NCBI RefSeq assembly: GCF_019880245.1
Contig: NZ_CP082286.1
Span: 948,521-1,012,520, forward strand
Direction: 5' to 3'
DNA length: 64,000 nucleotides
Origin: Halobaculum roseum
GTDB taxonomy: Archaea; Halobacteriota; Halobacteria; Halobacteriales; Haloferacaceae
Shown: positions 3 through 28,308 of the stretch, in pieces
How positions within the stretch are numbered: the stretch's first letter is position 1
Layout of the letters: the number at the start of each line of letters is the position of its first letter
Notes under the pieces: model-generated
What the model saw: the letters and a program-made list of their open reading frames with translations, nothing else
Told to the model about the DNA's origin: nothing
Databases searched by the model: none
Translations under genes and position numbers: made by a program

Positions 3-470
3 GAGTGGCGGCCGGCAGACAGAGAACCACCGCCAGCGCACTACCATCCCGCTACGGAGGAGCGTTTCGTCGTTCACGAGGGACACCTCGTCGTGCAGAT
101 CAACGGAATCGACAACCGCATCGACGCGGGTGAGGAGATCGTCGTCCCTGCGGGGGAACCCCACGTCTCGTACACGGAGGCAGAATCCACTCACTTCCGA
201 CGCGAAGTTGCTCCACCCGGACGGTGGCGGGAGGCACTGACCGCGCGGTTCGGCGCCGCGCACGCCCACGGCGATCACTCGGGCTTCAGCAACCTGCTTC
301 AGACGCTCCTGCTGCTTCGGGAGTATCCGGATGTGGTCGTTCCTGCACGGCCGCCACGCTCCGTCCAGCGTGTCCTGTTTCCGGTTCTCGCCGCGGTCGC
401 CCGGGTGACGGGCCGGACGGCTCACTGCCCGTATCCACAGGAGAATGTGCCCCGGGAGGAAGTACACTGA
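3..470 (+). CDS. Cupin-domain protein, 5' end cut off by the window edge
   Basis: The reading frame is open from base 3, so the gene starts outside the window. A GTG at 93 is in frame but would cut the fold in half. Before it the frame encodes cupin motif 1 (H-Y-H then E, about bases 39-60). After it comes motif 2 (G-x5-P-x-G-x2-H, about bases 132-168). His and Glu of motif 1 and His of motif 2 are the usual metal ligands. The C-terminal part is hydrophobic and carries no motif I know. The ligand or reaction cannot be told. It converges on the SnoaL-like gene, 88 bases away. Confidence 0.75.
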   Translation, partial: EWRPADREPPPAHYHPATEERFVVHEGHLVVQINGIDNRIDAGEEIVVPAGEPHVSYTEAESTHFRREVAPPGRWREALTARFGAAHAHGDHSGFSNLLQTLLLLREYPDVVVPARPPRSVQRVLFPVLAAVARVTGRTAHCPYPQENVPREEVH

Positions 471-558
471 ACAGTACTGTCGTGTTCCGGACCCTGGAAA
501 CACCACCACGTGGGCGTTCCAGTAAGACACGAGCGAGAAGGTGAGAGACACGCGTGCG

Positions 559-990
559 CTATGCGATCGGCTCGTCGAGTACGTCGAGTTGCTGAAGTGC
601 GGCGAGGAAGTTCCAAGTGGCCCACGTTTCCGCGATCTTCCCGTCCCTGATGCGGTGCATGGCGGTACCGGGAATTTCCATTCTCTCGTCTGTCGGATCG
701 ACACCCCGGAAGACGCCCTCGTGCGTGCCCGTCATCGTCCCTTCGAACGCCACCAGGTCGTCCTCGGCGATGAGTTCGCCAATGAGAACTTCGCTGTCGG
801 GGAACGCCTCGTGGAGTCGCTGTAGTGCCGTAATGAACGGCTCCGGACCCTGTTCGGCAACGTCAGCATCCGGATCGTGTCGCGTATAATCGGCGGTGAA
901 CAGCTCTCTCACCTTGTCGTAGTTCTGGGCGTTCGCCTCGCTGATGAACCGCCGAACGAGTTCTTTGTTCTCTTGAACTGTTGTTGCCAT
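559..990 (-). CDS. SnoaL-like / NTF2-fold protein (ester-cyclase type)
   Basis: A 143-residue protein of the length and pattern of SnoaL-like polyketide cyclases in the NTF2-like superfamily. It has an N-terminal helix with NKELVRRF, a central part with hydrophobic strands, and a late H-R-x-R-D-G-K-I-x-E-x-W segment typical of the fold. Haloarchaea do not make the polyketides of the name-giving enzyme, so it is probably a small-molecule hydrolase, isomerase or binding protein. Its start at 990 faces the FilR1-type regulator across a 274-base divergent region, which suggests, but does not show, regulation by it. Confidence 0.8.
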   Translation of the reverse strand: MATTVQENKELVRRFISEANAQNYDKVRELFTADYTRHDPDADVAEQGPEPFITALQRLHEAFPDSEVLIGELIAEDDLVAFEGTMTGTHEGVFRGVDPTDERMEIPGTAMHRIRDGKIAETWATWNFLAALQQLDVLDEPIA

Positions 991-1233
991 AGGTTCTCCG
1001 CGGAGTCACGGACTCCACATCTATCTCGGCGGAGGAGGCTATTCGCAATATCCCCTGAACACTGCTCACAGTGTGAACGAAGCATTCGAGACGAGAATGG
1101 CCCTATCCAGCGAACTGCTCGGGGACGGCTCCGATCTGTTGGGCCATTCCGAAAGTGGCGTACACTTCCCCGGTTTCAGCTATCTGGCCGTTTCCCCGAT
1201 CGATCGACATCCCCGCGAGGCGGTCACCCTATG

Positions 1234-1240
1234 CTATTTA
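1234..1240 (+). promoter_or_regulatory. TATA-like box of the FilR1-type regulator gene
   Basis: CTATTTA lies 25-31 bases before the ATG at 1265, the distance for transcription starting at or next to the start codon. It favours 1265 over the upstream in-frame ATG at 1073. Confidence 0.5.
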
Positions 1241-1264
1241 GTGTGGTATGTGTTATCAATATAC

Positions 1265-2125
1265 ATGAACTCGGCACTCGATGACGTCGCGTTTCTTGCG
1301 TTGTCCGAGAACCGAATCGACCTCCTCACGGTGCTGAGCGACGAGCGAACGCACACGCGTGACGAGTTGATGGATGCCACCGATGCTTCGCGCCCGACGC
1401 TCGCGCGGATTCTCGACGACTTCGAAGCGCGTGTCTGGATCACCCAGCACGGACAGAGCGCACGGATCACGTCACTCGGTACGTGGGTTCACGACGAGTT
1501 CACCGACCTACTGGAGATGATGGACACCGCACGACAACTGCGCACCGTCGAACAGTGGCTCTCGACGGACACGCTGGCATTCGAGCTGAGTTGTCTCACC
1601 GATGCAACAGTCACGCTGCCAAGCCGGAACAATCCGCTCGCGCCGATGCTCCGCGCGAGCGAGCTTGAGCGCACTGCTCGGCAGTCAAGGGTCCTTACAC
1701 ATGCGCTCCCGGTCCCGTGTCTGAACGCACACTGGGAGGCGATCACGACCGGTACCCATCAGTTCGAGGCAGTGGTCACACCGAACGTCGTCGAAACGAT
1801 GACCGAGCCGGCACACCGTTCACAGTTCACGGATATTCTCACAGATGACCAAGCAACCGTGTTCGTCGCCGACGAACCCATTGCAGATGTTGTCGGGATT
1901 AACGATGGCGTCGTGTACTTTGGAATCGATGACGACAAGGGCGCTCCGCTCGCTCTGATCGAAACCGACGACGAGACGGTTCGTAATTGGGCCGAGGAGA
2001 GGTTCGAGTCGTATCAGGAGACCTCCTCACTCTTGACACACGACAGATTTGTACAGAGACAGGAGACGACGCACGATCCGGAGCGGATACAGGAGCGTAT
2101 GTGTGCTGAAACATCTGATAGATGA
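1265..2125 (+). CDS. HTH transcriptional regulator, FilR1/DUF1724 type
   Basis: A 286-residue predicted DNA-binding regulator. Residues about 10-80 form a winged helix-turn-helix (RIDLLTVLSD, then DELMDATDASRPTLARIL). The rest matches the FilR1 middle-domain layout common in haloarchaeal regulators, ending in a segment rich in I-G-I-N-D-G-V-V-Y and A-L-I-E. The frame is open back to 1073, but a TATA-like box just before 1265 and the usual family length support the shorter start. The target is unknown; the divergent SnoaL-like gene is the obvious candidate. Confidence 0.8.
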   Translation: MNSALDDVAFLALSENRIDLLTVLSDERTHTRDELMDATDASRPTLARILDDFEARVWITQHGQSARITSLGTWVHDEFTDLLEMMDTARQLRTVEQWLSTDTLAFELSCLTDATVTLPSRNNPLAPMLRASELERTARQSRVLTHALPVPCLNAHWEAITTGTHQFEAVVTPNVVETMTEPAHRSQFTDILTDDQATVFVADEPIADVVGINDGVVYFGIDDDKGAPLALIETDDETVRNWAEERFESYQETSSLLTHDRFVQRQETTHDPERIQERMCAETSDR

Positions 2126-2522
2126 TATTCCTACCTCACAAGATACAGAGCGGAGATATCGCATCGAAGGCGCACATATCTGTATTGAGCGGTAGATGCA
2201 ACTGTTGTGAGACGGTCGAACCGGAGCCTGCAGCGCCGATAGATTTTCGGTACAATAATCGCCCGACGGTGGGCGATTCCCGGTCGAGCGGGCCTGATTT
2301 CGCGTTCGTTTCGACGCCCGCTTGGGTGAGTGGATCTCTCAGGTGTTCGCGTCCAGCCAAACTCGTCCCGTTCCAGAGGATCGATCGCCGATCGACACAA
2401 CACCCTCCCGATCAGTCGGGACGATCGTGTTCACATCGCCAGATTCGTGTCGCGCTCGTTCACGAAGCGGGACTCATCCAGTGACTCAGGGCGGGTCGTC
2501 GCCGGGGTACTGCGTGGGATCG
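2126..2522. other. Intergenic stretch without a supported gene
   Basis: About 400 bases between the regulator and the convergent glycosyltransferase. The first 150 bases are AT-richer than the surroundings. Open frames here lack haloarchaeal coding character. A short inverted repeat (TCCCGA, four-base loop, TCGGGA) lies near 2408-2423 and could act in transcript ends. Nothing else seen. Confidence 0.5.
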
Positions 2523-3437
2523 CTACTCGACGACCTCGACGTCGAACTTCCCGCGCCAGCGATAGCGCCGGCCGCCCCAGACGAACGTCCGGCGGACGAG
2601 CCCGTAGAAGAGGAGGGGGACGAACACGAACAGCGACGGATAGGCCAGCACGGCCGTCCACCGACGAACGCCAAGCACCTCGTTGACGGCGAGGTGCACC
2701 AGCGTCAGAATCACCGCCGCAGGCAACGGAGCCGACACCGCACCCACGAGGACGAGCAGCGAAAAGACGCATATCCCGGCGACGGTCCCGGGGAAGTGCC
2801 ACCGGAGGATCTGCGTCCACCGGACCGGGCGCTCGACCGCCTCGCGGATGGTTCCCCCGATGGGGACGATCCGCGTCCGGCCGACCGTCGTCACCTGGAG
2901 GTACTCCATGAGGAGTCCATCGTCACTGACGGTCCGCCGAAGGTCGTCGAGAAACGCGGCCTCGTCGATGTCGGTTCGCTCGAACACGACCGCGCCGCCC
3001 CAGATCTGATTGCCGAGGTAGAGGCCCAGCGAGCCAGCCGATGCGTACAGCGGTTCGAGGAGCACCGAAAGGGGGTCTCGCCCGACGAAGTACGGCACCT
3101 CCGACACCGGCCCGTACGTCTCGTAGTCCGCGGTGAAGGTCGCCAGCCAGTCCGGGGGATGGTGGAAGTCGTCGTCCGTCCAGACGAGCCGGTCGTGGCG
3201 CGCGGCCTCCATCCCGGCAGCGATGGCGTTGGCCTTTCCCGAGCACTGCTCCGGTTCACCGGCCGCGACGAGGCGGACGCCCTCGGGGTGGTCGTTCCGT
3301 TCGGCGACGGGGTCGTCCTCGTCGTCGTGGACGATCAACAGTTCGTCGCCGGCCCCGAGTTGGGCGGCCAACTCCGCGCACGCGTCAGTCCACCGCGTCG
3401 TCGGCAGGATGACGCTCGTCGGCGGCCGGTCGGACAT
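2523..3437 (-). CDS. Membrane glycosyltransferase family 2 (ceramide-glucosyltransferase-like)
   Basis: A 304-residue predicted sugar transferase. The N-terminal half is a GT2 fold: early strand SVILPTTRW, nucleotide-binding region, then WTDDDFHHPPDW holding the acidic DxD-type metal site, and later VSDDGLLMEYL. The C-terminal third has two or three hydrophobic spans (about 215-280), so the enzyme sits in the membrane and probably uses a lipid-linked acceptor. The ATG at 3437 is preceded at about 25-30 bases by an ATTTATCT box, so I take it over longer starts. Donor and acceptor are unknown. Confidence 0.82.
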   Translation of the reverse strand: MSDRPPTSVILPTTRWTDACAELAAQLGAGDELLIVHDDEDDPVAERNDHPEGVRLVAAGEPEQCSGKANAIAAGMEAARHDRLVWTDDDFHHPPDWLATFTADYETYGPVSEVPYFVGRDPLSVLLEPLYASAGSLGLYLGNQIWGGAVVFERTDIDEAAFLDDLRRTVSDDGLLMEYLQVTTVGRTRIVPIGGTIREAVERPVRWTQILRWHFPGTVAGICVFSLLVLVGAVSAPLPAAVILTLVHLAVNEVLGVRRWTAVLAYPSLFVFVPLLFYGLVRRTFVWGGRRYRWRGKFDVEVVE

Positions 3438-3627
3438 GGTAGTGACCTCTGATGACGGAAAGATAAATGGACGGTTCCCCCCGACCCGGTACGTCCGGGA
3501 CGAACCGCTGCCGTATTCAGCACGCCCGTAGCGGCCGGAGGAAATCGAACGGGGGAAATGAGCCGACCCGCTCGCGAGGTTCCCGAGAGCCGAATCTTCA
3601 TGTCCCCGCCGTCGAAAGCCGGGTTCG

Positions 3628-4887
3628 ATGGCAAGCGCGGCGCGCTCGCTGACGGAACCGCAGGTCCTCGCGCACACGAAGCGCCGCCTCTTCCCGGAGG
3701 ACGCCGACGACGGGTACGCCGTCGTCGACACGCAGTTCGCCTCGAATCGGTGGCTCGCCGACGGAGCGATCGATTCGAGCGTCACGGAACTGCTCGCGCC
3801 GTTCAACCACGTCCGCGTCGGGTCGGGCTACCCGGACCTGGTCGGCGTTCGCGTCCTCGATCCGGACCTGCTAGCCGTCGACCGGCTGGGGGAGGAGCCG
3901 CCGCTCGTCGCCGTCGAGGCGAAGGGGTACGACGACCGCGGCGGCGTCGACGTGGAACGCGGCGTCGTCCAGGCGTACGACCGACTCGACGAGGCCAACG
4001 CCGTGTACGTCGCGGCGCCCGTCGCCTCGATCGGCGGGTCGGTCCGGACGCTCGCACGCGAACTCAACGTCGGCGTCCTCGCCGTCGACGCCGACGGCTC
4101 GGTCGACGCCGTCGAGGTGCCGCGCGTCGTCGGCAACCGGACGACGAGCGAGACGACCGCGATCCGGTTTCAGGCGAGCGCCCAGGGCGTCGCCGACAAG
4201 TCGTTCGGCCTCAACCACCCGAAGAACTACCTCGCGTATCCGCTGGCGCTGTACCACCCCGACGAGACGGGGCGCGTGCTCTCCGAGCACGTCGTTCGCG
4301 CCGTCGACGCCGCTCGCACCGGCGCCGCGTTTCTGAACCTCGTCGAGGAGCGACCCGACGGGGTGCGGTTGACGCCGCTGGGGAGGGAAGTGGTGAGGTT
4401 CGCGCTCGCGGAGTACGGCTCAGTCGAGTCCGCGTTGGCCGACTTCGACGAGTGGAAGCGGTCACGGAGGCGGTTTTCCGACATCGCGCCAAAGTGGGGG
4501 CTGCTCACCCGTCGGGTGGTCTACGCGTATCCGGCGACGCAACTGCTCGTCGAGGAGCTCCAGCGCCTCCACGAGGACGGCGTCCCAGAGCCGACGCTGC
4601 CGCAGGTCGTCGAGTACCTCCACGAGCTGCACCCCTCGTTCACGGTCGAGCTGTTCGTCCGCGGCGACGACGACGTTCGGGGGCGCGTGTTGGACGCTGA
4701 CGGCGAACTACAGCGCGCGGAACTGACCGACGGGAACGTGTATCACGCGCCCACGGTGTTCCAACTCAAGGCGATGCTGTATCACGCGGGAATTCTGACG
4801 ACCCGCGGAACCGAGCCCTCGAACCTGGATCCGACGGCCGACACGTGGGCGCTCCGGGAGCAGGTGACCCCTACCGAGCCCCGGTAG
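3628..4887 (+). CDS. Uncharacterised protein with a PD-(D/E)XK nuclease-like N-terminal domain
   Basis: A 419-residue haloarchaeal protein I cannot name. Residues about 60-115 carry a G-Y-P-D-L strand followed after some 30 residues by VAVEAKG, the D...ExK layout of the PD-(D/E)XK nuclease superfamily. Nearby VVQAYDRL resembles the helix that follows that core. The remainder is helical and includes a winged-helix-like stretch (about 225-270). No methyltransferase or defence partner lies beside it. It could be a DNA-repair or restriction-like nuclease, or a regulator that has reused the fold; catalysis is inferred from three residues only. Confidence 0.7.
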   Translation: MASAARSLTEPQVLAHTKRRLFPEDADDGYAVVDTQFASNRWLADGAIDSSVTELLAPFNHVRVGSGYPDLVGVRVLDPDLLAVDRLGEEPPLVAVEAKGYDDRGGVDVERGVVQAYDRLDEANAVYVAAPVASIGGSVRTLARELNVGVLAVDADGSVDAVEVPRVVGNRTTSETTAIRFQASAQGVADKSFGLNHPKNYLAYPLALYHPDETGRVLSEHVVRAVDAARTGAAFLNLVEERPDGVRLTPLGREVVRFALAEYGSVESALADFDEWKRSRRRFSDIAPKWGLLTRRVVYAYPATQLLVEELQRLHEDGVPEPTLPQVVEYLHELHPSFTVELFVRGDDDVRGRVLDADGELQRAELTDGNVYHAPTVFQLKAMLYHAGILTTRGTEPSNLDPTADTWALREQVTPTEPR

Positions 4888-21729: not shown

Positions 21730-22962
21730 GTGACGAAGCGCCTCTTCACCGCCCTCTGCGGGTTGGTCTTTCTGGTCAACTTCGGGCGGGTCGCGTTCGC
21801 GCCGCTGGTCCCCGAGTTCCAGCAGGACCTCGGGATCTCGGCGGCCGCGGTCGGCTCGGTCACGACGCTCGTGTGGATCGGCACCGCGGCCCCCAGGATC
21901 CCGATCGGGTGGGTGCTCACGAGGGTCGCCCGCGAGCGCGTCGTCCTCGCGACCGGGATCGCGCTGTCGCTTGCGGCGGCGCTCACCGCCATGGCCGACT
22001 CGCTGCTCGCTCTCCGGGTCGGCGCGTTCGCGGTCGGGCTCGCCACCGGCGGCTACTTCGTCGCCGCGATCCCGCTCATCGGCGCGCTGTACCCCGAGCG
22101 GACCGGCAGGGCCGTCGGGGTCCACGGCACCGCCAGTCAGGTCGCGAGCGTCGTCGCCCCGGCGCTCGCGCTCGCGGCGATCGCCCGCGTCGGCGACTGG
22201 CGCGCGGTGTTCTGGCTGCTCGCGGGCGGGGCGCTCGTCGTCACGATCGCCCTCTTCGCGGTCGTTCGGGCCCGCGGCGGGGTCGAGCCCGAGGGCGACG
22301 CTGCCGCGACCGACGGGGACGGCGTCGCCGACGCGGAGCCGCGGAGCTTCCTCGCGGCGCTGTCGCACTGGCGGATCGTGCTCGCGGGGATGTCGCTGGT
22401 CGCCGTCGCGGGCTTCGCCTGGCAGGGCGTGTTCAACTTCTACGTGAGCTACCTGCTCTCGAAGGGACTGACGCCGGCGAACGCGAACCTGCTGCTCACC
22501 GTCGCGTTCGCCGCCGGCGTGCCGGCGTTCTGGCTCGGCGGCCGGCTCGCCGACCGGCTCCCGAAGGTGCCGTACCTGCTCGCGCTCAACGCCGCGTTCG
22601 TCGCGTCGCTGGTGACGCTCACGTACGCCGGGTCGCTGGCGGCGTTCGCCGTCGTCTCGGCGGCCCTGGGCTACGCCGCGCACGCGCTGTTCCCCGCCGT
22701 CGACACGTACATGCTGTCGACGCTGCCGGCGGCCGACCGCGCCAGCGCGTACGCCGTCTTCTCGGGCGCGTCGCTGCTGTTCGAGGCGAACGGCTCCGGC
22801 GTCGTGGGCGCGCTCACCGACGCCGGGGTCGCGTTCGACCGGGTGTTCCGGCTGTTCGCCGTCGCAGTGGCGGCGGTGCTCGTGCTCGCGGCGCTGTTGT
22901 ACGTCCTCGGCCGGTTCCCCGCCCCGGCCGGATCCACCCGACGGCAACCGGACGGTCGATGA
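21730..22962 (+). CDS. Major facilitator superfamily transporter
   Basis: A 410-residue transporter with 12 predicted spans in two halves, separated near residues 180-200 by an acidic loop. Between spans 2 and 3, GWVLTRVARERVVL is a weak form of the MFS loop-2-3 motif; the second half repeats it better as GGRLADRLPKVPYLL. GTG start at 21730. The substrate cannot be inferred; nitrate/nitrite-porter and drug-exporter subfamilies are both possible. No linked enzyme genes. Confidence 0.88.
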   Translation: MTKRLFTALCGLVFLVNFGRVAFAPLVPEFQQDLGISAAAVGSVTTLVWIGTAAPRIPIGWVLTRVARERVVLATGIALSLAAALTAMADSLLALRVGAFAVGLATGGYFVAAIPLIGALYPERTGRAVGVHGTASQVASVVAPALALAAIARVGDWRAVFWLLAGGALVVTIALFAVVRARGGVEPEGDAAATDGDGVADAEPRSFLAALSHWRIVLAGMSLVAVAGFAWQGVFNFYVSYLLSKGLTPANANLLLTVAFAAGVPAFWLGGRLADRLPKVPYLLALNAAFVASLVTLTYAGSLAAFAVVSAALGYAAHALFPAVDTYMLSTLPAADRASAYAVFSGASLLFEANGSGVVGALTDAGVAFDRVFRLFAVAVAAVLVLAALLYVLGRFPAPAGSTRRQPDGR

Positions 22963-23122
22963 TCGGGGGCGGTGACCGTCACCGGTGAGCGAAGGTCGGC
23001 GATGCTCTCCGGTGATCGACGGCCGGCGGCCGTCTCGGATGACCGACGGTCGGCGATCGACCGTCGGCGAGTGACAGTCGGTCGCCGAGCGGCGGCGGTT
23101 CCCGTCGATCCGACGAAATCGG

Positions 23123-23138
23123 ACCGAAACGTTTTGGT
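23123..23138. promoter_or_regulatory. Near-palindrome over the promoter of the membrane HTH gene
   Basis: ACCGAAACGTTTTGGT is a 16-base inverted repeat with one mismatched pair, centred about 30 bases before the ATG at 23161, where the TATA box should be. A site in this place would fit autoregulation by the HTH protein encoded next. The 150 bases before it are full of short GGTGACC/GACGG repeats. Confidence 0.4.
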
Positions 23139-23160
23139 CTTCTATGAAGAACTCCCCCGT

Positions 23161-23988
23161 ATGTCAGGCACGCTCCCGTCGAACACGGACGACCCGGACG
23201 GGTCCGACGGGGCCGATGGGTCGGACGGGGCCGACCGTGCTCCGGAGAACACGAGCGGCGCACGGGCCGACGGGGGGGCCGCCGAATCCGACGCCATGTC
23301 GACGCGGCGTCCGCCCGCATCCGGGGGGACGGGATCGTCGGCGACGACCGACATCGACCCGTCGGCTGCGGATCTCGACGCCGTCGAGCGCGACGCCGCC
23401 GAACACGGCGACGACGCCGAACCCGACGACGAGAGCGTCCGGGTCTGTTGGCTCGACGACGAGGGCGCCGACGATCTCATCGGCGCGCTCGCCCCGGAGA
23501 CGGCCAGGACGATCCTCGGGTCGGTTCACGAGCAACCGAAGACGGCCTCCGAGCTGGCCGACGCGGCGGACACCTCGGTCCAGAACGTCCGCCACCACGT
23601 CTCGAAGCTCACCGACGCCGGGCTGGTGGAGTCCGTCGACACTCGCTACTCCGTCAAGGGGCGGGAGATGACCGTGTACGGCCCGGCAGACGACCGCGTC
23701 GTCGTCGCCGTCGGCGGCGAGTCGGAGCGCTCCTCGCTGCTGGATTCGCTTCGCGGGCTGTTGGGCGCGGTCGCGGTGCTCGCGGGCGCGAGCCTCCTCG
23801 TGCAGTCGCTGTTCGGCGCGTCGGTCGCGACGCTGTCGGGACCGGAGACGGTGCCGCGGATCGGGGACGCCGTCGGGGGGTCCGCCGGCGCGACGCTCGG
23901 AACGCTCTCGCCGGGCGTCGCGTTCCTCGCGGGCGGGCTCCTCGTGCTCGCGACGCTCGTGGCCGCCGACCGAGTTCGGGACAGGTGA
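23161..23988 (+). CDS. Membrane-anchored winged-HTH regulator (ArsR/HTH_20 type)
   Basis: A 275-residue protein. Residues 1-95 are disordered, rich in Asp, Gly, Ser and Ala. About 110-175 is a winged HTH (LAPETARTILGSVHEQP, ASELADAADTSVQNVRHHVSKLTDAGLVE). Two hydrophobic segments follow (about 198-218 and 247-268), so the DNA-binding domain is tethered to the inner face of the membrane. Its TGA overlaps the GTG of the subtilase-like gene (GTGA at 23985-23988), implying coupled translation. The pair could form a sensor and response module; that is inference. Confidence 0.85.
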   Translation: MSGTLPSNTDDPDGSDGADGSDGADRAPENTSGARADGGAAESDAMSTRRPPASGGTGSSATTDIDPSAADLDAVERDAAEHGDDAEPDDESVRVCWLDDEGADDLIGALAPETARTILGSVHEQPKTASELADAADTSVQNVRHHVSKLTDAGLVESVDTRYSVKGREMTVYGPADDRVVVAVGGESERSSLLDSLRGLLGAVAVLAGASLLVQSLFGASVATLSGPETVPRIGDAVGGSAGATLGTLSPGVAFLAGGLLVLATLVAADRVRDR

Positions 23989-25346
23989 CGACCGTGGGTC
24001 GGACGGCGGCGCTTCTGACGGTCGTTATCGTCGTCGCGAGCGCCGGCACCGGCCTGGTCGGCGCCGACGTGACCCGCGAGAGCGCCGCGTTCGTCGGCGG
24101 GAACGCCATCCCGGGGTACGGCGATCTCGACCGGTTCGCCGACGGATCGGGGTCGCCACCGGCGGCCGGTTCCCCGTCCGACCGCGAGGAACTCCAACGT
24201 GGATCCTCCGGATCCGTCGACGCCGCGGTCGACGACGACGCCGTCCGCGTCGGCGTCATCGGGAGCGGATTCGGCGACGACGCGGCCGTCGACGGTCGGG
24301 TGGTCGCCCGCTCGCGCGCCGGTACCGCTCGGTTCGGCCTGGTTCCGGGCGGCCGCGACGCCGGCGGCCACGACGCCGCCGTCGCGAGCGTCGTCGCACA
24401 GCGCGCCCCGGAATCGTCGCTGTATCTCGCCTCGGTCGGCTACGAGCCGACGCCGGCCGAGTACGCGCGCGCGGTGGACTGGCTCGTGGACCACGAGGTC
24501 GACGTGATCGTCGACGCGGGGAGCTACTACCCGCGAACGGCCGACGGGATGGACCGGATCGCCGGCGCCGCCGAGCGCGCGACGGACGACGGAACCGTCT
24601 TCGTCACCTCCGGCGGAAACGCCGCACAGCGGCACTGGCGCGGGGCGGCGAGCGATCCGGGGTGGCTGGCGTTCGACGACGACGGCACGCAGGGCAACCG
24701 CCTCGGCGACGGACCGATCTCGGGTGCGGTGACGCTGCGGCTGTACTGGTCGGGGTCGGGCGACTACGACCTGTACCTGTACCGCGACGTCGCGGACGGC
24801 CCCGACGAGGTCGTAGCGAAGTCGACCCGCGGGTCGGGCCGGGCGGAGGCGATCGACGCGGTGGTTCCCCGCGGCTCCTACTACGTCGCGGTGCACGCGC
24901 GCGACCCCGGCGACGGCCACGTGGACCTGTTCGCCGCGCGCCACCGACTCGCGCACGCCGCCGCCAACGGGAGCACGGTCGCGCCCGCCACCGCCGGCAC
25001 CGACGGCGTCATCTCCGTCGGCGCGGTCGGAGCCGACGGCCGGCTCGCGGCGTACTCCCCGGCCGACACCGACGTGCGCGCGGCGGGAACGGTCGGCCTC
25101 CCCGACGGGACGACCCTCAGAGGGACCTCGGCGGCCGCGCCGGCCGTCGCGGGCGTCGTCGCCGAGATGACCGCCGCCGCCGGCGAGGACGGGCTCACGC
25201 CGGCGGAGACCGAGCGACTGCTCCGCGAGACCGCCGTCGACGGTCGGATCGACCCCGGAGCCGCCGTCGCCGCAGCGAGCGCCGACAACCGGACGGGCGA
25301 GGACGCGAGCGCGGACGACGGGTCGTGGGTGTACCGCGGTCCGTGA
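23985..25346 (+). CDS. Secreted S8 subtilase-like protein without the usual catalytic Asp
   Basis: A 453-residue protein with an N-terminal hydrophobic signal segment (about 7-26). The subtilisin core is visible in order: VRVGVIGSG at 87-95, where the catalytic Asp of the D-T/S-G motif is replaced by Gly93; His129 in GGHDAAVAS; oxyanion Asn212 in VTSGGNAA; Ser382 in RGTSAAAPAVAG. A beta-rich insert (about 240-320, DYDLYLYRD, SYYVAVHARD) resembles pre-peptidase C-terminal domains. Asp98 or Asp99 could substitute for the missing residue. Without it the protein may be a binding or sensing module rather than a protease. It is coupled to the membrane HTH gene. Confidence 0.82.
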   Translation: MTTVGRTAALLTVVIVVASAGTGLVGADVTRESAAFVGGNAIPGYGDLDRFADGSGSPPAAGSPSDREELQRGSSGSVDAAVDDDAVRVGVIGSGFGDDAAVDGRVVARSRAGTARFGLVPGGRDAGGHDAAVASVVAQRAPESSLYLASVGYEPTPAEYARAVDWLVDHEVDVIVDAGSYYPRTADGMDRIAGAAERATDDGTVFVTSGGNAAQRHWRGAASDPGWLAFDDDGTQGNRLGDGPISGAVTLRLYWSGSGDYDLYLYRDVADGPDEVVAKSTRGSGRAEAIDAVVPRGSYYVAVHARDPGDGHVDLFAARHRLAHAAANGSTVAPATAGTDGVISVGAVGADGRLAAYSPADTDVRAAGTVGLPDGTTLRGTSAAAPAVAGVVAEMTAAAGEDGLTPAETERLLRETAVDGRIDPGAAVAAASADNRTGEDASADDGSWVYRGP

Positions 25347-25415: not shown

Positions 25416-25805
25416 GTGCGAGAACCCGGCGGCGTCGCGATCGCCGAGCGCGTCGAGGAGTACTGGGGGTGGGCGGCGGCCGCGCTGTTTCTCCTCGTGA
25501 CCGTCGACCTGTTGACGACGATGTACGCCGCGGCCGTCGTCGGAGCCGAGGCGGAGGCCAACCCGCTGATGCGGTGGGCGTTGGGGCAGTCACTCCCCGT
25601 GCTCGTCGTCGTCAACCTCGGCGCAACGGTGCTCGCGGTCGTCGTCTTTCGGGGACTGATGGAGACCTACCGGGTGACGCCGGCGAGCGTTCGTCCGTAC
25701 TACGGCCTGCTCATCGAGGCGTGGCTCGGGCTGCTCGTCGCCGCCGGCCTCGCGCTGTTCGCCAATAACCTCTCGGTGATCGTGCTCGGCGAGAGCCTGA
25801 TTTGA
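25416..25805 (+). CDS. Four-span membrane protein, DUF5658-like
   Basis: A 129-residue protein with about three or four hydrophobic spans (roughly 20-38, 58-78, 95-120) and the pattern VDLLTTMYAAAVVGAEAEANPLM, in which a polar D-x-x-T-T segment inside the first span precedes E-x-N-P. This resembles the DUF5658 family; function unknown. It follows the subtilase-like gene by 69 bases on the same strand and may belong to that group. GTG start at 25416. Confidence 0.7.
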   Translation: MREPGGVAIAERVEEYWGWAAAALFLLVTVDLLTTMYAAAVVGAEAEANPLMRWALGQSLPVLVVVNLGATVLAVVVFRGLMETYRVTPASVRPYYGLLIEAWLGLLVAAGLALFANNLSVIVLGESLI

Positions 25806-25908: not shown

Positions 25909-28308
25909 GTGGAAACCGCCGACTACACCGTGACCGAGGCGACGGACGAGCCGTGGCGAACCGTGTTCGGGCACCCCGACCCGTACCCAGAGCAGGCCGA
26001 CGGGATCGAGGCCGCCCGCGCCGTCGCCGACGACGGAGGCTACCTCGCGCTGGAGGGCGCATGTGGCACCGGGAAGACGATGCTGGCGCTGACTGCCGGC
26101 ATCGACCTGGTACGCGACCCCGACAGCGACTACGAGCGCGTGCTCGTGCTCACGAGCGTCAAGCAGCAGCTCCGACAGTTCGAGGCGGACCTCCGCACGA
26201 TCAACGAGGGACTGCCCGACGACTGGCGCCCCGTCTCGGGGATGACGCTCGTCGGCAAGGCCGACGTGTGCCCGTACGCCCGGGAGAACCGCGGCGGCGT
26301 CGACACGGCGAACGTGTACGAGCGCTGTGAGGGGCTGCGCGAGCGCACCCGGGACCTCGTCGGCGACGCCGACGGCGGCGAGACCACCGCCGGCGCGCTC
26401 GCCGAACAGGCCCGTCGCGCACAGACCGGGCTCGCCGACACCGGCGAGGACGGCGCCGCATACCTCGAAACCGCGGGCGAGCCGACGCCGTACCTGCCGG
26501 AGATGCCGGAGCACGGAGGGTCAGCCACCCGCGAGGGCGTCGAGTACTGCCCCTTCTACGCGCAGTACCTCGACGACCTCCCGGAGGACGGCGACGCCGC
26601 GGAGGCGGTGCCGTTCGACTTCGCCGACCGGGGACTCATCGACGCCGAGGAGCTGGTCCGCCTGTCGGCGGGCCACGGCACCTGCCCGCACTCGATGATG
26701 GGGGCGATCCTCCCGCAGGTCGAGGTCGTCGTCGGCAACTACTACCACGCGTTCGACCCGACGACGGTCGGCGGGTTCACGGGCGCGCTCGTCGACGACT
26801 CCACCTTCGTCGTCTGCGACGAGGCGCACATGCTCGAACCGCGGGTCCGCGACCTCGTCTCCGACGGCGTCGCCGACACGAGCCTCCGCGACGCCGAGAA
26901 CGAGCTGACGCGCGTCATCCAGCCGGTGCAGTTCGAGGACTCGGGCCGGCGCGTCGAGGGGACGACCGACGCCGACCTCGTGCGCGGCGAACTCGCCGAC
27001 GCCGAGGTGAGCCTCGACGAGGTGAAGCTCCTGCTGGAGTTCGTCCGCGACCTCCGCGAGGAGCTCGACCGCCGCGTCGAGGGCTTCCTCGACGCCGAGC
27101 GCCGCGGCTGGCGCGACGACCCTACGGACCTCGACGACGAGGAGATCCCGCTGCGCGATCCGGAGGAGCCAGGCGTCGACGAGATCACCGAGTGGGCCCG
27201 CGACGCCGGCTACGGCGAGCAGGTGTGGGCCAGGGCCGAGCAGGTCGGCGCCGTCGCCGCGCGGATCCTCGACGAGGCCGAGGAGGAGGACCGCCAGCGG
27301 GCCGTCCCCGGGGTCGGCCGGACGCTCAACGCCTGGTACCGCTGCGATCACGAGACGTACTTCCGAGAGCTGGAGCTCCTTCGCACGTGGGACGAGACCG
27401 AGGCGCCCGACTCGTGGCGCCGCGCGTACAACGCCCGGCTCGCGTTACACAACTGCGTGCCCGCCGACGCCATCGGCGAGCGCCTCGCCGACTTCGGCGG
27501 GGGCGTGCTCATGTCGGCGACGCTCGCACCGCTCGACGTGTTCCGGGAGGTGACGGGGCTCAACTACCTCGAATCGGAGGGTCGCCCCGTCGAGGAGCGG
27601 ACCTACGGCCTCGGGTTCCCGGAGGAGAATCGGGCGTCCTTCGCGGTCGACGTGCCGAAGTTCACGTTCTCCAACCGGGGTGTGCCCGGCGAGAGCAACG
27701 AGACCCGCCGCGCGCACGCCGACGCCGCCGCCGAGGTCGCCGCGACCACGCCCGGGAACGTCCTCGTCGGGATGCCCAGCTACGGCGAGGCCGAGTGGAT
27801 GGCCGGCGAGTTGGACGCCGACGGCCGGATCGACAAGGAGGTCCTCATCGACGAGTCGAGCGACGACACCGCGACGGAGGCGCTCAAGGCGGACTTCTTC
27901 GACGGCGACGCGAAGGTGCTCGTCACCAGCATCCGGGGCACCCTCACCGAGGGCGTCGACTACGAGGGCGACCGCCTCGCCGCGGCGGTGATCTGCGGCG
28001 TCCCGATCATCAACACCTCGTCGCCGCGGACGCGCGCGGTGAAGACGGCCTACGACCGCGAGTTCGGCGAGGGGTTCGAGACCGCGCTGACGGTGCCTGC
28101 GGTTCGGAAGGCCCGGCAGGCGATCGGCCGGGTGATCCGGGGGCCCGAGGAGGTCGGCGTCCGCTGCCTGGTCGACGCACGCTACGCCCGCCAGTCGTGG
28201 AACGCGGTCCGCGAGTATCTGCCCGAGTACGAGCGCGAGGAGTTCCGGCCGGTGAGCCCGGACATGCTGCGCTTCGGGTTGGAGCGGTTCTGGGACGACC
28301 ACGGGTAG
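25909..28308 (+). CDS. XPD/Rad3-type Fe-S DNA helicase
   Basis: A 799-residue superfamily 2 helicase. Walker A is GACGTGKT (50-57) and Walker B is DEAH (304-307). Four cysteines lie between them: C121 (DVCPY), C140 (ERCEG), C214 (YCPFY) and C259 (GTCPH), the arrangement that holds the 4Fe-4S cluster in XPD/Rad3 and DinG helicases. The C-terminal motor has LMSATLAPLD, SIRGTLTEGVDY and the motif VI stretch QAIGRVIRGPEEVG. It should unwind DNA 5' to 3' in repair. It is longer than archaeal XPD because of an acidic region at about 325-430. GTG start at 25909. Confidence 0.92.
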   Translation: METADYTVTEATDEPWRTVFGHPDPYPEQADGIEAARAVADDGGYLALEGACGTGKTMLALTAGIDLVRDPDSDYERVLVLTSVKQQLRQFEADLRTINEGLPDDWRPVSGMTLVGKADVCPYARENRGGVDTANVYERCEGLRERTRDLVGDADGGETTAGALAEQARRAQTGLADTGEDGAAYLETAGEPTPYLPEMPEHGGSATREGVEYCPFYAQYLDDLPEDGDAAEAVPFDFADRGLIDAEELVRLSAGHGTCPHSMMGAILPQVEVVVGNYYHAFDPTTVGGFTGALVDDSTFVVCDEAHMLEPRVRDLVSDGVADTSLRDAENELTRVIQPVQFEDSGRRVEGTTDADLVRGELADAEVSLDEVKLLLEFVRDLREELDRRVEGFLDAERRGWRDDPTDLDDEEIPLRDPEEPGVDEITEWARDAGYGEQVWARAEQVGAVAARILDEAEEEDRQRAVPGVGRTLNAWYRCDHETYFRELELLRTWDETEAPDSWRRAYNARLALHNCVPADAIGERLADFGGGVLMSATLAPLDVFREVTGLNYLESEGRPVEERTYGLGFPEENRASFAVDVPKFTFSNRGVPGESNETRRAHADAAAEVAATTPGNVLVGMPSYGEAEWMAGELDADGRIDKEVLIDESSDDTATEALKADFFDGDAKVLVTSIRGTLTEGVDYEGDRLAAAVICGVPIINTSSPRTRAVKTAYDREFGEGFETALTVPAVRKARQAIGRVIRGPEEVGVRCLVDARYARQSWNAVREYLPEYEREEFRPVSPDMLRFGLERFWDDHG

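Follow-up and report, generated by a model that had tools for sequence, protein, structure and literature searches.

The window analysed here, a stretch of 64,000 nucleotides of the Halobaculum roseum genome (NZ_CP082286.1), contains a pair of overlapping genes encoding a membrane-anchored helix-turn-helix (HTH) regulator and a protein with a subtilase fold (Table 1). An earlier note on this DNA had described both reading frames and the GTGA in which the stop codon of the first meets the start codon of the second, and we find them as described. The MSGTLPS start of the regulator agrees with the MSGLLPS start in its relatives, and the same gene is also present in H. gomorrense (NZ_FQWV01000005.1).

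Table 1. Features of the regulator-subtilase locus, in window coordinates
Feature	Position	Strand	Remarks
18-bp near-palindrome GACCGAAACGTTTTGGTC	23122..23139	.	-39..-22 of the regulator ATG; candidate operator
HTH regulator gene	23161..23988	+	ATG start; product 275 aa; winged-HTH, membrane-anchored (HTH_20 + HVO_1552_C)
HTH_20 DNA-binding domain	23497..23637	+	Residues 113-159, Pfam
Membrane span 1, predicted	23746..23805	+	Residues 196-215, hydropathy
Outside loop, predicted	23806..23892	+	Residues 216-244; clade motif GPxxxPRxGD
Membrane span 2, predicted	23893..23952	+	Residues 245-264, hydropathy
GTGA overlap	23985..23988	+	Regulator stop / subtilase start; from sequence
Subtilase-fold protein gene	23985..25346	+	GTG start; 453 aa; triad Asp missing
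Hydrophobic N-terminal segment	24006..24059	+	Signal peptide or anchor; residues 8-25, hydropathy maximum 2.31
Gly93 at catalytic Asp position	24261..24263	+	Alignment of relatives
His129 and Asp130	24369..24374	+	Catalytic His; acidic residue seen in proteins without Asp93; alignment
Asn212	24618..24620	+	Oxyanion hole; kept in 87/87
Beta-sandwich insert, PPC-like	24645..24974	+	About residues 221-330, between Asn212 and Ser382
Ser382	25128..25130	+	Nucleophile; kept in 87/87
DUF5658-like membrane protein	25416..25805	+	Third gene; 22.4 bits, Pfam cut-off of 25.2 not reached

The regulator and its promoter

The regulator scores 47 bits against the Pfam family HTH_20 and 34.4 bits against HVO_1552_C (PF24267), both above the cut-off of 27. 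Hydropathy places two membrane spans at its C-terminus, in agreement with the earlier note, and from these we infer a hairpin in which the HTH domain would lie inside the cell and a short loop outside. The definition of a transmembrane transcription regulator, as worded in the accessible part of its source, is a DNA-binding domain and at least one membrane span in a single chain (PMC10269533); the HTH_20 domain and the two spans predicted by hydropathy fit this description. The orthologous regulator at locus L062 was modelled in one chain with its subtilase, the stop codon being read through (pTM 0.60). The model shows the HTH as winged, followed by a hairpin of two long helices, but gives the loop no firm position (block-mean pLDDT of about 49-71), a result that counts neither way. 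By the Pfam cut-off the regulator is a member of the HVO_1552-like HTH membrane proteins. However, the 30 top-scoring PF24267 loci (L031-L060) and one in the same genome as the window (L157) form a separate branch of the HTH tree, unlike the paired regulator, and no subtilase or surface-gene relative was seen near them in the stretches examined.

A near-palindrome, GACCGAAACGTTTTGGTC, covers the promoter of the operon, as had been claimed. We take its position to be the expected place of the BRE/TATA core promoter of a leaderless transcript. The sequence is found with at most one mismatch in all six members of the genus (6/6), though the flanks largely differ. Allowing up to two mismatches, the 3.72 Mb genome holds one such site, the operon's own. 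That the palindrome is unique in the genome makes it likely that the regulator controls its own expression through this candidate operator. The same search, used to look for a regulon, returned only the operon's own site. As a family-wide operator the palindrome fails beyond the genus, with two mismatches at L067, four at L074 and at least five in the rest; outside the genus mostly promoter-like sequence occupies the position.

Conservation of the pair in two gene orders

Using a protein search over 293 genomes of the taxonomic order we collected 86 further regions, which together with the window give 87 loci. A census with a family profile found at least 86 places at or above the cut-off of 345 bits, in at least 74 of the 293 genomes; five candidates were scored per genome, so these counts are lower bounds. 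An HTH hairpin gene lies nearby on the same strand in 84 of the 86 loci, the exceptions being L118 and L120, a recurrence that is more than chance. Lack of conservation of the pair, one of two findings that the earlier note had named as counting against it, was not what we observed. The genes are also close: of the 80 pairs measured, 78 have no more than 101 nt between stop and start, and the other two have 299 nt (L087) and 654 nt (L143). In a separate scan all 18 archaeal loci were paired (18/18), several of them from the same species. We also considered giant multi-domain S8 relatives as members of the pair, but no HTH gene was adjacent in the 17 regions concerned (L161-L177). These proteins, of 850-3800 residues, contain the same insert-bearing domain; HTH hairpin relatives lie several kb away in six of the regions, with a weak one in L175.

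The pair occurs in two orders. The regulator comes first in 32 loci, including the window, and the subtilase comes first in 48 of the first 87 loci and in four more (L156, L158, L159 and L160). The order switches once on the subtilase tree, and the pairing persists through the reversal. On the HTH tree the two orders and the unpaired relatives form three groups, each lying wholly to one side of a branch. In both protein trees the deepest split separates the two orders. The two genes have been inherited together. Ten genomes, the window's own among them, hold one pair of each order. The second pair in the window's genome (L156, subtilase 2246-3670, HTH 3713-4372) has serine in place of the triad aspartate; a BGTF surface protein, this subtilase and the HTH hairpin lie on one strand at 338-4372 of that region (C1:2148837-2152871).

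The loop between the spans differs between the orders. A PR..D motif is present in 30 of the 32 regulators of the HTH-first order versus 2 of the 48 of the subtilase-first order. The type of loop thus tracks the type of subtilase, which favours a sensor in which the subtilase docks on the loop. The two types differ at a single deep split, and their match may reflect shared ancestry. A segment of the subtilase at residues 172-183 (about 24498-24533), near the expected substrate-binding strand, also shows a near-fixed difference: HTH-first proteins have a VDVIVDAGSYY-like sequence here, whereas most subtilase-first proteins have one resembling VDVVVAPVSFY.

The surroundings of the pair differ as well. 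In the window a membrane protein follows on the same strand, as the earlier note had stated, but its assignment to DUF5658 falls short of the Pfam cut-off and the gene is kept in only 10 of 32 loci; it is a lineage-limited neighbour. An MFS-type transporter upstream (21730-22962) and a DinG-like helicase downstream (25909-28308), both named by eye, have kept their place close to it in 12 and 17 loci respectively, so the site is old in the family. Of 51 subtilase-first loci, 48 have a gene for a BGTF protein, of S-layer type, next to the pair, versus none of the 32 in the window's order (0/32); the count omits L144, which has no gene call. This neighbour occurs in several orientations and at L130 is one gene removed. 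In 20 relatives, each genome has about 1 to 9 places with such a domain, so the adjacency is not a matter of chance. The gene is related to the S-layer glycoprotein model: in all three proteins scanned (3/3) NF045517 was matched above its cut-off and NF041335 below it. Megaplasmids carry the set in Haloarcula hispanica (pair genes HAH_RS18460 and HAH_RS18465) and H. marismortui, where it is flanked on its other side by a gene for a CPBP intramembrane protease. CPBP (Rce1-like) genes are found near the subtilase-HTH pair in 12 loci among L093-L119 and on the two Haloarcula plasmids (L216, 2279-3130; L217, 2252-3208), and only there; they encode a possible second protease.

An alternative is a link at the level of the operon only. 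The regulator could be the anchored autoregulator of an envelope gene and the subtilase could serve surface proteins, for example as a chaperone or binder of the S-layer-type protein, leaving the regulator untouched. The palindrome found only at the window operon and the S-layer-type neighbour of the sister order would suit such a link, as would ArnR, an archaeal HTH protein with two C-terminal spans for which the accessible part of the source names no partner (PMC6396743). We consider it rather unlikely, because the pairing outlasts the reversal of gene order and the S-layer-type gene is missing near every locus of the window's order. Regulators that merely share an operon are, moreover, often swapped.

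The subtilase-fold protein and its active site

The second protein of the pair scores 43.7 bits against Peptidase_S8, above the Pfam cut-off, and its predicted structure, with a core pLDDT mostly above 90, matches subtilisins with a Z of about 27, in line with the fold originally proposed for it. Among the Foldseek matches listed the top one was CspA of C. difficile (E 3.4e-12). The VIA-align listing has three kinds of match tied in Z: CspB, aligned over 329 residues (Z 27.6), subtilisins, over about 220 (Z about 27), and site-1 protease, over 228 (Z 27.2). The longer alignment to CspB suggests, from aligned length only, that the insert may be alike in CspB too. In the model the strands of this insert run from E238 to E317. 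PPC was rejected as its name, since the window protein scores 16.3 bits and all scores, those of relatives included, are below the cut-off. The same YDLYLY-type insert was also seen in S8 proteins encoded by Gemmatimonadota, Latescibacterota and Anaerolineales MAGs (L197-L202), with no HTH hairpin gene.

The N-terminal hydrophobic segment contains no twin arginine in its sequence. Residues 1-76 are modelled at a pLDDT below 50, and none of the propeptide families gave a match in the 10 relatives scanned; about 80 extra N-terminal residues are present in some relatives only.

His129, Asn212 and Ser382 are retained and Gly93 sits at the position of the catalytic aspartate, as the sequence and an alignment of relatives bear out. 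We place the triad position at column 93 because relatives that keep the aspartate show it there (8 of 32 loci in the HTH-first order and 49 of the remaining 55). Over all 87 loci, window included, the histidine, asparagine and serine are invariant, and column 93 is aspartate in 57, glycine in 27 and another residue in 3. Within the window's order Gly93 is conserved in 24 of the 32 relatives. The suggestion that a nearby aspartate might be invariant and stand in for it did not hold: on the alignment we reject both Asp98, found in 4 of 32, and Asp99, found in 7 of 32. Residue 130, the glycine of the usual H-G-T, gave a different picture. Of the 27 Gly93 proteins 19 have aspartate there, versus none of the 57 Asp93 proteins (0/57), and 19 of the 24 Gly93 proteins of the window's order carry it. 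L078, inside the Gly93/Asp130 clade, is Asp93/Gly130. The remaining 8 of the 27 Gly93 proteins have aspartate at neither position. The exchange is suggestive of a catalytic acid that has moved. For the subtilase tree we set aside 13 near-copies and another 6 proteins that were large or divergent, which left 68 of the 87, and removed columns 93 and 130. On this tree the state of the triad aspartate changes six times, five of them forced by starred branches. Independent co-change of the two positions amounts to one event at most, and the sign test is without power.

The dN/dS ratio lies at 0.14-0.45 in nine ortholog pairs, and at 0.26 between the window protein and its nearest relative. Loss of the aspartate is a conserved trait of the clade under purifying selection. 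The repeated changes of state could also be read as decay, with a former protease gene being lost and carried along by its neighbour, but the open frames, the dN/dS values, the invariant His, Asn and Ser and the retained pair make this highly improbable. On present sequence evidence the window protein belongs to S8 by its fold, lacks the Asp of the Asp-His-Ser triad and may not be a protease. The invariant residues suggest that some catalysis may remain.

It is possible that such residual activity is directed at the regulator itself. SREBP is a hairpin membrane transcription factor with an inner N-terminal DNA-binding domain and a short outer loop, the same HTH-span-short loop-span layout as here, and site-1 protease ranks with the top structural matches listed. 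By analogy the subtilase would slowly cut the outer loop of the HTH hairpin as a dedicated substrate, starting release of the HTH domain, with Asp130 replacing Asp93. The invariant His, Asn and Ser, the distribution of Asp130, the nested L078 and the aspartate kept in most proteins outside the window's order all point this way. Against it stand the eight Gly93 proteins with neither aspartate, the single co-change at most, and the motif of the other order, D-x-T-G, in which the usual D-T-G is extended by one residue. We think cutting somewhat improbable for the window pair. It is the main rival to docking, and a stronger one for the sister order, most of whose members have a complete triad.

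A possible surface-sensing unit and related systems

The earlier note had suggested that the two proteins form an outside-to-inside signalling pair. This is supported in part: the genes are indeed kept together and signalling is still the best reading, but the read-through model of L062 left the outer loop poorly defined. Tentatively, and with a little less than even confidence, we propose that regulator and subtilase make up one unit that senses the surface, in which a pseudoprotease docks on a hairpin regulator. The subtilase-fold protein would leave the cytoplasm and stay on, or close to, the outside of the membrane. In the window's lineage ordinary protease work would have been lost, and the intact cleft (His, Asn, Ser) together with the beta-domain may bind a peptide or surface-protein signal. 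We infer that the protein would dock on the short outer loop and that docking would set whether the inner HTH domain occupies the palindrome in the promoter of its own gene. For the sister subfamily the likely client or signal would be the S-layer-type protein encoded beside the unit.

Several observations support docking. The pair is kept in 84 of 86 loci, with close spacing in 78 of 80, and has survived a reversal of order; ten genomes hold both orders, and the HTH tree splits as the subtilase tree does. The His, Asn and Ser are invariant in 87 of 87 proteins despite the loss of the aspartate, with a dN/dS of 0.14-0.45. CspA and CspB are among the nearest folds, and CspA and CspC are signalling pseudoproteases. 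The S-layer-type gene adjoins the pair in 48 of 51 subtilase-first loci and in 0 of 32 of the window's order. The palindrome, single and confined to the genus, argues against docking, since it gives no regulon beyond the operon itself, and so does the chance, raised by the invariant Ser, His and Asn, that some catalysis remains.

A wider reading can be drawn, which we consider quite doubtful. The S-layer-type protein, the surface (pseudo)subtilase and the hairpin factor could form a haloarchaeal surveillance module, read by docking on or cutting of the loop, and in the window's branch the aspartate would have moved next to the catalytic histidine to give a slow or binding-only enzyme.

The path by which signals travel from the S-layer side to the genes is largely open in archaea, and the pair offers a small, concrete and testable system. 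Its retention through the reversal of order, with an S-layer-type protein beside one version, makes it worth testing. The Gly93/Asp130 exchange is, in addition, a natural test of how far a subtilase active site can function when the usual aspartate is missing. HTH regulators bound to the membrane are known, and so are pseudosubtilases that act in signalling; in the open-access PMC literature we found no description of their fixed pairing or of its S-layer-type neighbour.

Among known regulators, ArnR and ArnR1 of Sulfolobus are one-component membrane-bound proteins that have been linked to surface structures and that have their HTH at the N-terminus and two spans at the C-terminus. Unlike the window regulator, ArnR has a HAMP and a sensing domain, and the accessible part of the source describes no subtilase partner (PMC6396743). 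In TcpP/TcpH, so far as the available text of the source covers it, the abundance and activity of a membrane regulator are set by a membrane partner, as we propose here (PMC11323476). That partner is a single-pass membrane protein, whereas the window's is a subtilase-fold protein.

Site-1 protease and SREBP resemble the window pair in combining a subtilase outside with a hairpin transcription factor. The window subtilase differs from an active site-1 subtilase in lacking the triad aspartate; no second protease was tied to the window pair in this analysis, and the window genes are adjacent. The clostridial Csp proteins (CspB, a protease, and CspA and CspC, pseudoproteases) have their fold, and probably an inserted beta-domain, in common with the window subtilase. 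Haloarchaea, to our knowledge, form no endospores. In the accessible parts of the sources the Csp family has a beta-domain inserted in the subtilase domain and both active and triad-broken members (PMC6636752, PMC3567191), and CspA and CspC act as pseudoproteases in germination signalling (PMC6636752). The Csp proteins have a prodomain and a role in spores, and no DNA-binding partner is described for them in those parts, whereas the window subtilase gene is paired with that of an HTH protein. The active sites have also been altered in different ways: CspC has lost the histidine and the serine, whereas the window subtilase has lost the aspartate and keeps both of these.
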